A stretch of DNA of 64,000 nt, taken from the NCBI GenBank assembly GCA_008363075.1, contig RHKK01000006.1, forward strand, positions 1 through 64,000, in the 5' to 3' direction. This DNA comes from Candidatus Uhrbacteria bacterium (GTDB taxonomy: Bacteria > Patescibacteriota > Patescibacteriia > 2-12-FULL-60-25). The notes beneath the pieces were generated by a model, which ran no database searches, had not been told where the DNA came from, and saw only the letters and a list, made by a program, of their open reading frames with translations. Shown piece by piece: positions 33,482-62,008 of the stretch (positions within the stretch are counted from its first letter, which is position 1; the number at the start of each line of letters is the position of its first letter). Both the position numbers and the translations under genes were made by a program.

Positions 33482-33589
33482 TTTACAGTTAACAGATGAC
33501 AGTTGCCAGCCTGGGAAAGTTTCTAGTTTCCAGTTATCAGTTGCCAGTCTGAAAACTGGTCACTGGTTACTGGTCACTGGTTACTGCCC
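33482..33589. repeat. Long heptamer array with inverted halves, containing the ruvB stop
   Basis: Units of CAG type (TTTACAG, TTAACAG, ATGACAG, TTGCCAG; then TTTCTAG, TTTCCAG, TTATCAG, TTGCCAG) are followed by the complementary CTG type (ACTGGTC, ACTGGTT, repeated, then ACTGCCC). The last five residues of RuvB (VTSDQ) and its stop are encoded in the array. Confidence 0.92.
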
Positions 33590-34577
33590 TGCCAAGATGT
33601 TTGTACGCGAGTTCGGTTGCGATGCGGCCGCGCGGAGTGCGGGCAAGGAGCCCGAGTTGGAGGAGGAACGGTTCGACCACGTCTTCGAGTGTCTCGACTT
33701 CCTCGGCCGTGGCGGCGGCGAGCGTGGTGAGTCCGACCGGCCCGCCGTTGAATTTTTCGATAAGCGCCTTAAGGACACGCCTATCGGCTTCGTCGAGACC
33801 AAGCGTATCGATCTCGAGCGCCGAAAGCGCGCGATCCACCACGTCTTCGCGCAACTCGCCGTCGGCCATGACCTGCGCGTAGTCGCGGACGCGCTTGAGC
33901 AGGCGATTGCCGATGCGCGGCGTCCGACGCGAACGGTTCGCGATCATGGACAGTGGCACATCGTCCACCGGAAGCTCGAGAAGGCGCGAGGACCTGCGCA
34001 GGATTTCGCGCATTTCGTCCGGGCCGTAAAAATCGAGATGGAATTGCGCGCCGAATCGGTCGCGCAGCGGCGCGGACAGCAGCGAGAGCCGCGTCGTTGC
34101 GCCGATCAGCGTAAAGCGCTTGAGATCGAGGCGGAGCGTGCGTGCGGTCGGCCCCTTGCCGATGACGATGTCGAGCGCGAAGTCTTCCATCGCGGGATAT
34201 AAGACCTCCTCGATCGAACGGTTCATGCGGTGGATTTCGTCCACAAACAAGATGTCGCTGTCTTCCAGGTTGGTGAGAATGGCGGCAAGATCGCCGACGC
34301 GTTCGAGGGCCGGACCGCTTGTGACGCGGACGTTTGATCCCATCTCGTTGCCGATCACATGCGCGAGCGTCGTCTTTCCAAGTCCCGGCGGACCGTACAG
34401 CAGGACATGGTCGCACGGCTCGCCGCGCTTTTTGGCCGCTTCGATAAAGATACGGAGGTTTTCTTTGGCCGCAGGCTGGCCGATAAAATCCGCGAGCGTT
34501 TTTGGTCGTAGTGCGACATCAAAACCGCGATCCACGCTTTGTTCTTCGGGGGCGATGACGCGCGGCTCTTGTTCCAT
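33567..34577 (-). CDS. ruvB: Holliday junction branch migration helicase RuvB
   Basis: 336 aa from [16 protein letters not shown]+ motor of the RuvABC complex. Walker [15 protein letters not shown], Walker [13 protein letters not shown], sensor 1 [21 protein letters not shown], the arginine finger in the same segment, and the C-terminal winged helix [29 protein letters not shown] longer start at 34601 is open, but TGC-TAGGAT (extended -10) would then lie inside the gene, so 34577 is preferred. A GTTC-N7-GTTC box overlaps the start codon, suggesting LexA control. Confidence 0.96.
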
Positions 34578-34585
34578 ATCTGTTC
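34571..34585. promoter_or_regulatory. LexA-type box (GTTC-N7-GTTC) at ruvB
   Basis: GTTC-CATATCT-GTTC on the plus strand, overlapping the ruvB ATG. TGTTC-N6-TGTTC also matches the lexA upstream boxes at 61,111-61,138. Confidence 0.65.
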
Positions 34586-34591
34586 GAGTAG

Positions 34592-60379: not shown

Positions 60380-61042
60380 ATGCCGAGGAGAACGCTGGAA
60401 GAGGTCCAGGGAGGCGCGGGCTTCGTCGTGGGGCTCGCCAACGCCTTCATCGTAGAAGCGCGTGAGCGGCAGGTGCCTTTCGCCGCTATCGATCGGCTCT
60501 CGCGGCCGGAAGGACGGGAAACCGTCGGAAAGATCCTCGAGCTCGCGAGACGGGATTGGGAAGGCGTCCCGCAGAACCAGGCGCACGCGCCGACTCCTCC
60601 GCGACCGTGTCCGGTGGATGGCGAGCGCTACGGGGTCTTCGTCGATCCCGGCAAGTTCGATCCCCAGAAGATCGCCTTCATGGATCGTGAGAAGAAACTC
60701 GACCACGACGACATGTGTCGTGAGGCCGCGAGCCAGGTCGGTGAGCGGGTCTTCATCCTCAGGAGCTTCGGCCGGGTCATGAGCCGAAGCGGGGTAAGGC
60801 GCTGGGCCAGAGAGAACGGTTGTCGCGTCGCAACCCTTGCGGAAGCGGACGCGCTGATCGGCGCGTATCCCGAACTGCTCCGCGATGATGCGTCCATCGG
60901 CATCCTCGGCACCTACCAGCGGTTGCAAGGAAGGTATTTCTTCCATCTTCGAAGGCTGCATGGGTTGTCGCCCAGAACGGAGTTCTATCTCGCTTCCGGT
61001 CTGTACAAGGCTCGGACGAGATATGTGTTCGTCCTGGACTAG
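60380..61042 (+). CDS. Hypothetical 220-aa protein
   Basis: From MPRRTLEEVQGGAGFVVGLA, with GAGGTGG just before the ATG at 60380. Soluble, no signal. Distinct stretches: PCPVDGERYGVFVDPGKFDP, RVFILRSFGRVMSRSGVRRW, RVATLAEADALIGAYPELLR, and FHLRRLHGLSPRTEFYLASG. I do not recognise the family. A longer open frame upstream crosses the tRNA-like element and is rejected. Terminator follows. Confidence 0.72.
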   Translation: MPRRTLEEVQGGAGFVVGLANAFIVEARERQVPFAAIDRLSRPEGRETVGKILELARRDWEGVPQNQAHAPTPPRPCPVDGERYGVFVDPGKFDPQKIAFMDREKKLDHDDMCREAASQVGERVFILRSFGRVMSRSGVRRWARENGCRVATLAEADALIGAYPELLRDDASIGILGTYQRLQGRYFFHLRRLHGLSPRTEFYLASGLYKARTRYVFVLD

Positions 61043-61065
61043 TCCCGCGATTGCGGGATTTTATT
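61043..61065 (+). terminator. Terminator of the 220-aa gene
   Basis: TCCCGC-GATT-GCGGGA followed by TTTTATT. Confidence 0.8.
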
Positions 61066-61110
61066 GTGGATAACAATTGCGAAATCCAGTAGAATCAGGC
61101 GTTTGACTTT

Positions 61111-61138
61111 TGTTCTACTCGTGTTCTATTCTTGTTCT
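61111..61138 (+). promoter_or_regulatory. Triple TGTTCT direct repeat: LexA operator and promoter of lexA
   Basis: TGTTCT at 61111, 61122 and 61133, an exact 11-base period, giving two overlapping GTTC-N7-GTTC boxes. The promoter TTGACT (61103-61108)-N18-TATTCT (61127-61132) is covered by them. The ATG is at 61141. Confidence 0.8.
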
Positions 61139-61140
61139 GT

Positions 61141-61755
61141 ATGGCTCCTCCCTTAACACCCAAACAAAAAGAAGTGCTCGATTATATCGTGAACTTCATC
61201 AACGAGCGCGGATTTCCGCCCTCGTATCGCGAAATCGCGGGCGGGCTTGAGCTCGCGTCGCCGTCCACGGTCCACGCGCACGTGCAGGCGTTGCGCGGAC
61301 GCGGGTTCCTGCGCGAGGGAGACGGGGGAGGCGGCCGCGAGCTTGAGCCGACCGACAAGGCCGTGCGCTGGGGGCGGAGCGTCGTGCTGCCGCTGAAGGG
61401 TCTTATCACTGCCGGACAGCCGATCGAGGCCGTGGAAGAGCGCGAGACGTTTGCCGTTCCCGTCGATCTCGTGCCGGACTCGGCCAACTCGTACGTGCTG
61501 CGCGTCAAGGGCGATTCCATGATCGATGAAGGCATCCACGACGGCGATTATGTCATCGTCGAGCACAACCCCTCGCCGAACAACGGCGACGTCGTGGTCG
61601 CACTGCTCGACAACGCCTACGCGACGCTCAAAAAGTTTTTCCGTGAAAAAGACCGCATCCGGTTGCAGCCCGCCAACAAGACCATGAAGCCGATTTATTG
61701 CTATGACCCGCTCATCCAAGGCGTCGTCAAGGCCGTGATCCGCGCGTACCGCTAA
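61141..61755 (+). CDS. lexA: LexA repressor
   Basis: 204 aa from MAPPLTPKQKEVLDYIVNFI. Winged-helix domain GFPPSYREIAGGLELASPSTVHAHVQALRGRGFL, then the self-cleavage domain: Ala-Gly site in LKGLITAGQPIEAVEE (ITAG instead of the usual AAG), Ser in VKGDSMIDEGIHDGDYVIVE and Lys in VVALLDNAYATLKKFF. It represses DNA repair genes until RecA stimulates cleavage. Autoregulation is supported by the boxes upstream. The start at 61141 fits the family; a 3-codon longer frame lies inside the operator. Confidence 0.96.
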   Translation: MAPPLTPKQKEVLDYIVNFINERGFPPSYREIAGGLELASPSTVHAHVQALRGRGFLREGDGGGGRELEPTDKAVRWGRSVVLPLKGLITAGQPIEAVEERETFAVPVDLVPDSANSYVLRVKGDSMIDEGIHDGDYVIVEHNPSPNNGDVVVALLDNAYATLKKFFREKDRIRLQPANKTMKPIYCYDPLIQGVVKAVIRAYR

Positions 61756-61759
61756 TCCT

Positions 61760-62008
61760 ATGTCCTACGAATCCGTACGCGAGTCCGTTGAGGTGCTCGT
61801 GGCCTTTAAGAACGAGCGGCCCGAACCCATGATGTTCAAATGGGGCGCGCGATACTATCAGATCCGTAAGATCAATCTTGTGCATGCCGAGCGCGTCGGG
61901 CGTGAAAAGGTTTACTTTTTCTCCGTCAGCGACGATGCGCACGCCTATCGTCTCGCGTTTCACACCGAGTCGCTCAACTGGCGACTTGAAGAGATGTGCG
62001 TATTATGA
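61760..62008 (+). CDS. Small protein in the lexA operon (DUF6504-like)
   Basis: 82 aa: SVEVLVAFKNERPEPMMFKWGARYYQIRKINL, then EKVYFFSVSDDAHAYRLAFHTESLNWRLEEM. The P..F.WG.R.Y.I...........R.YF.V......Y.L.F....W.LE pattern recalls DUF6504, which is often linked to Y-family polymerases. It follows lexA by 4 bases, so it may be a member of the SOS response. No dinB gene is visible here. Family assignment is tentative. Confidence 0.7.
   Translation: MSYESVRESVEVLVAFKNERPEPMMFKWGARYYQIRKINLVHAERVGREKVYFFSVSDDAHAYRLAFHTESLNWRLEEMCVL

Follow-up and report, generated by a model that had tools for sequence, protein, structure and literature searches.

A direct-repeat LexA operator predicted at lexA, ruvB and further SOS genes of Candidatus Uhrbacteria

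Direct repeats with tandem GTTC half-sites at an 11-bp period, located at the lexA promoter and across the ruvB start codon of an Uhrbacteria genome (Patescibacteria), are very probably an autoregulatory lexA operator and a ruvB operator of the same SOS regulon. They lie in the window, the whole 64,000-nucleotide stretch of DNA analysed, which is contig C8 of a 1.10-Mb genome that is 99.9% complete. The initial annotation had read GTTC-N7-GTTC as the LexA operator of SOS genes, and the occurrence of predicted sites at the same genes in this genome and across the family supports that reading.

Repeats and promoter at lexA

The lexA gene (61141..61755, + strand) encodes a 204-aa protein with a wHTH and an S24 peptidase domain that is recognized as LexA by Pfam (LexA_DNA_bind PF01726, 3.8e-18; Peptidase_S24 PF00717, 6e-29) and is up to 87% identical to the LexA of named Uhrbacteria MAGs. 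When aligned to the E. coli LexA chain (PDB 7b5g), the self-cleavage residues, namely the Ala-Gly site and the catalytic Ser and Lys, are all present. Neither the 220-aa ORF 5′ of lexA (60380-61042) nor the 82-aa ORF directly 3′ of it (61760-62008) has a Pfam match, and small ORFs that by eye resemble the latter (cluster CL 6) adjoin operator sites in relatives.

Three TGTTCT words with an exact 11-bp period had been described over the lexA promoter and are located at 61111, 61122 and 61133 (span 61111-61138), the last of them finishing 2 bp short of the lexA start codon (ATG, 61141). A consensus scan predicts a promoter at 61103..61132 (+ strand), with TTGACT at 61103-61108, an 18-bp spacer and TATTCT at 61127-61132, that would yield a nearly leaderless mRNA. 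The -10 element of this predicted promoter falls inside the predicted core operator, GTTCTATTCTTGTTCTG (61123..61139, + strand; half-sites 61123-61128 and 61134-61139; PWM score 28.2). An overlapping pair upstream, GTTCTACTCGTGTTCTA (61112..61128, + strand; PWM score 20.6), has as its first half-site, at 61112-61117, the extra third repeat of lexA. Among the 24 family lexA upstream regions that have a core site, an extra GTTC is positioned 10 bp upstream of the core in five and 11 bp upstream in one. As the third repeat is thus mostly absent and its spacing varies, usually to 10 bp, three half-sites were ruled out as the general unit; the conserved unit is the core of two half-sites, and the variable third repeat at lexA is a local elaboration.

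The predicted ruvB operator

The ruvB gene (33567..34577, - strand; start codon 34577-34575) has a GTTC-N7-GTTC copy at 34571-34585 on the + strand, within a predicted LexA operator, GTTCCATATCTGTTCGA (34571..34587, + strand; PWM score 16.4), that overlaps the start codon. Because ruvB is on the minus strand, this copy reads GAACAGATATGGAAC in the direction of the gene and extends across the ATG, where a GTTC-N7-GTTC copy had been reported. The site is kept at the same place in four relatives, and the genomes that carry it form a subclade. One further site across the start codon, with a score of 12.7, is present in the ruvB set, and in genome G016 a weaker ruvB site is located further upstream.

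Predicted operators in the genome and across the family

Within the window, TGTTC-N6-TGTTC occurs three times versus 0.11 expected from shuffles, and the triple repeat once versus 0 in shuffles, in keeping with the earlier view that chance is unlikely to have given two SOS genes a shared motif. In the whole 1.1-Mb genome there are 55 matches to GTTC-N7-GTTC and five to TGTTC-N6-TGTTC, two at lexA and single ones at ruvB, within the promoter of recA and 5′ of mraZ. The matrix used to rank sites was built exclusively from the lexA sites of 22 relatives and the ranking is therefore an independent test, as neither this genome nor any gene other than lexA contributed to the training set. The highest score in the genome, 31.0, belongs to the site at dinB, the translesion polymerase gene expected of an SOS regulon, followed by lexA (28.2), recA (24.3), rarA (22.7), the upstream pair at lexA (20.6), mraZ (17.6) and ruvB (16.4). 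The next site, at 13.8, is within a coding region and the remainder score <9. The identities of rarA and dinB are given by MgsA_C (3.3e-62) and IMS (5.2e-42) matches, respectively, and recA and ruvB were also identified.

The family operator consensus, GTTCTATTTTTGTTCTA, is longer than GTTC-N7-GTTC and, with at most one mismatch, is found in 36/36 genomes of the same family and in 0/21 that belong to other families within the class; a reversed-pattern control gave about one match in the family. In family genomes, predicted operators with a PWM score of at least 16 precede lexA itself in 23/25 and recA in 29/30, as an SOS regulon predicts, and also rarA (24/28) and mraZ (17/29), with dinB (6/30) and ruvB (4/26) having a site in a minority. 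Coding-region background yielded no such site in 948 pieces for the ruvB, mraZ, dinB and recA sets combined, and high-scoring pieces numbered 2/441 in the lexA set and 4/279 in the rarA set. Orientation is fixed for each gene, forward at lexA, dinB and rarA and reverse at recA, ruvB and mraZ. The family lexA upstream regions with a site have a direct repeat, two tandem GTTC half-sites at an 11-bp period, rather than the palindromic box of Gammaproteobacteria and Gram-positive bacteria. The mraZ site is weaker and stands 118-241 bp ahead of the start codon, and membership of mraZ in the LexA-regulated set is probable at most.

A search for the motif at recA, uvr and ssb genes had been proposed. 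Sites are present at recA, and also at dinB and rarA, but no uvr or ssb gene was linked to a high-scoring site among the matrix-scored GTTC-N7-GTTC sites of this genome. With uvrA having a site in only two relatives, a uvr/ssb regulon in this genome was dropped. Family sites also occur at genes for Bro-N proteins. Five genes encoding Bro-N domain proteins, whose role is unclear, have a predicted LexA operator that is sometimes accompanied by a DnaA box.

DnaA boxes and the mraZ module

An exact DnaA-box 9-mer, TTATCCACA, is present upstream of lexA at 61065..61073 on the - strand and reads TGTGGATAA on the + strand. Family gene sets were scanned for DnaA boxes with at most one mismatch in the 250 bp, or less, upstream of each gene. 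Boxes were found upstream of lexA in 18/25 (9 exact), recA in 22/30 (7 exact) and mraZ in 23/29 (6 exact), and the same scan found them nearly absent upstream of ruvB (0/26), dinB (1/30) and rarA (2/28). Exact boxes occur in 2 of 1668 coding background pieces. Across the phylum, 35 of 132 lexA upstream regions contain an exact DnaA box versus 0.1 in shuffles. At mraZ the box sits right next to the operator with a nearly constant offset of 10 bp, and most recA boxes are 44-51 bp upstream. The motif RDHTTAMHAC is present in domain IV of DnaA from seven family genomes, and boxes of a similar kind are found in several family dnaA promoters.

Upstream of mraZ, at 118-241 bp, lies a conserved module, GTGGGAAA..TTATCCACATTGGAACARAAAAAGAAC. 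In several genomes it is directly followed by a hairpin and a T-run, with TTGAC about 45-50 bp further on. An exact DnaA-box pair on contig C11 (10646/10679) was considered as oriC and dropped, as it lies inside a glycosyltransferase-like ORF.

LexA lineage and half-site variation in Patescibacteria

A LexA DNA-binding domain above the cut-off was found in 152 of 193 sampled Patescibacteria genomes. In a tree that included only two alphaproteobacterial LexA rows, the LexA encoded in the window is placed among other Uhrbacteria (100/100), inside the patescibacterial LexAs and not with an alphaproteobacterial lineage. Exact 6-mer direct repeats in lexA upstream regions outside the family peak at a period of 11, with 27 of 132 regions; the remaining periods give 2-13 and shuffles 2.3. 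In rows with a detected repeat, an Ala at residue 38 of helix 3 (E. coli numbering; LASPST, LASVST) goes with TTCTA half-sites, and a Ser, Arg or Gly there with TTCG[GTC]; L082, which has GTTCGG and a helix deletion, was left outside these classes. The two Ala38 groups are in separately supported clades and so represent two or more lineages but only a small number of independent events. A Fisher value computed for this association took hand-entered counts, disregards relatedness and is not relied on. For many patescibacterial LexAs with other helix types, an 11-bp repeat was not detected in the lexA upstream regions; CSSPMGVVSH and VKSKNAVAKLL are examples of such helix-3 types.

Tentatively, and with rather more doubt than confidence, these patterns suggest that lexA, recA and mraZ, the start of the division cluster, may be under joint LexA-DnaA control in Uhrbacteria and partly across Patescibacteria, and that residue 38 may set TTCTA versus TTCG. 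The idea of a pairing with DnaA was formed after the data had been seen.

Proposed mechanism and alternative explanations

One LexA dimer would read two head-to-tail GTTCTA half-sites, 11 bp or about one turn apart and separated by a T-rich spacer, with a flexible hinge presumably allowing one DNA-binding domain to turn to read the direct repeat. At lexA, a dimer over the -10 hexamer and start site would block RNA polymerase, presumably by occlusion. RecA filaments on damaged DNA would then stimulate LexA self-cleavage, and cleavage would release lexA, recA, dinB, rarA, ruvB and probably mraZ. The third repeat at lexA would provide a second, overlapping register, probably for tighter autoregulation. 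The suggestion that spacing by one turn lets LexA dimers bind in register holds for the core; it is less clear for all three repeats, since one dimer fully fills only one of two overlapping registers.

Chance, or the composition of a T-rich promoter containing TGTTCT words, might be invoked as this is an AT-rich promoter within a GC-rich genome. Such an origin has a negligible probability: it is ruled out by the shuffles of the window and by the family, in which the same SOS genes retain the sequence along with its spacing and orientation. It is improbable, but rather less so, that the site is bound not by LexA but by another regulator of DNA-repair genes. LexA binding here is predicted from sequence, and T-tract positions beyond the half-sites are also conserved; against this, nearly every genome has the site at lexA itself, the pattern that autoregulation predicts, and the half-site sequence varies with LexA helix-3 residues across Patescibacteria.

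Horizontal acquisition of the system from Alphaproteobacteria, together with the GTTC-N7-GTTC box, would account for the identical layout in that class (PMC8565304), and PMC7739468 cites such a transfer of lexA into Acidobacterium. The LexA nevertheless clusters with patescibacterial LexAs (96/77 overall, with 99/87 and 100/98 inside the set), the pair of alphaproteobacterial rows, at 34% identity, fall elsewhere in the tree, and graded variants, GTTCGG and TTTCTA, occur in sister lineages. Transfer is thus unsupported by the tree and very unlikely. Because the LexA groups with its patescibacterial counterparts, the likeness of the operator to the alphaproteobacterial box looks convergent.

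Significance and comparison with known systems

Recognition of the sites as LexA operators would give a large uncultured lineage, with genomes of ~1 Mb, a defined SOS regulon that can be tested, in which lexA, recA and rarA are retained and dinB and ruvB are optional. The natural series of LexAs and direct-repeat operators (GTTCTA, GTTCGG, TTTCTA) is well suited to testing a recognition code, and the DnaA boxes raise the possibility of a conserved link between replication initiation, the damage response and division. The main point is of limited novelty. A literature search on LexA in Parcubacteria/CPR found nothing relevant. Direct-repeat LexA motifs in Patescibacteria have probably already been published, as a study of the SOS network in this same phylum (Sanchez-Osuna, Barbe and Erill 2017, Environ Microbiol 19:3465) is cited in PMC7739468 among the work on independent evolution of direct-repeat recognition by LexA. 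The parts that may be newer are the covariation of the half-site with helix residue 38 and the DnaA boxes at lexA, recA and mraZ.

As stated in the initial annotation, GTTC-N7-GTTC is documented for Alphaproteobacteria, with two GTTC half-sites at an 11-bp period (PMC8565304). That arrangement is common to both, but the Uhrbacteria half-site is longer (GTTCTA), its T-rich spacer is conserved and, unlike in Alphaproteobacteria, the LexA lineage is patescibacterial. According to PMC7739468, direct-repeat recognition by LexA evolved independently several times. The Balneolaeota motif, TTACACATATTTTWTACATA, is also a direct repeat, with a different half-site and in a different phylum, and its binding was established by EMSA (PMC7739468), whereas binding in Uhrbacteria is a prediction. 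EMSA has likewise documented that LexA binds an mraZ promoter originating from the gut metagenome (PMC3998124). DnaA and LexA jointly control uvrB, recN and dinJ in E. coli (PMC6015884), a precedent for both proteins acting together on SOS promoters; the pairing in Uhrbacteria, at lexA, recA and mraZ, is seen at the sequence level and is conserved in the family.
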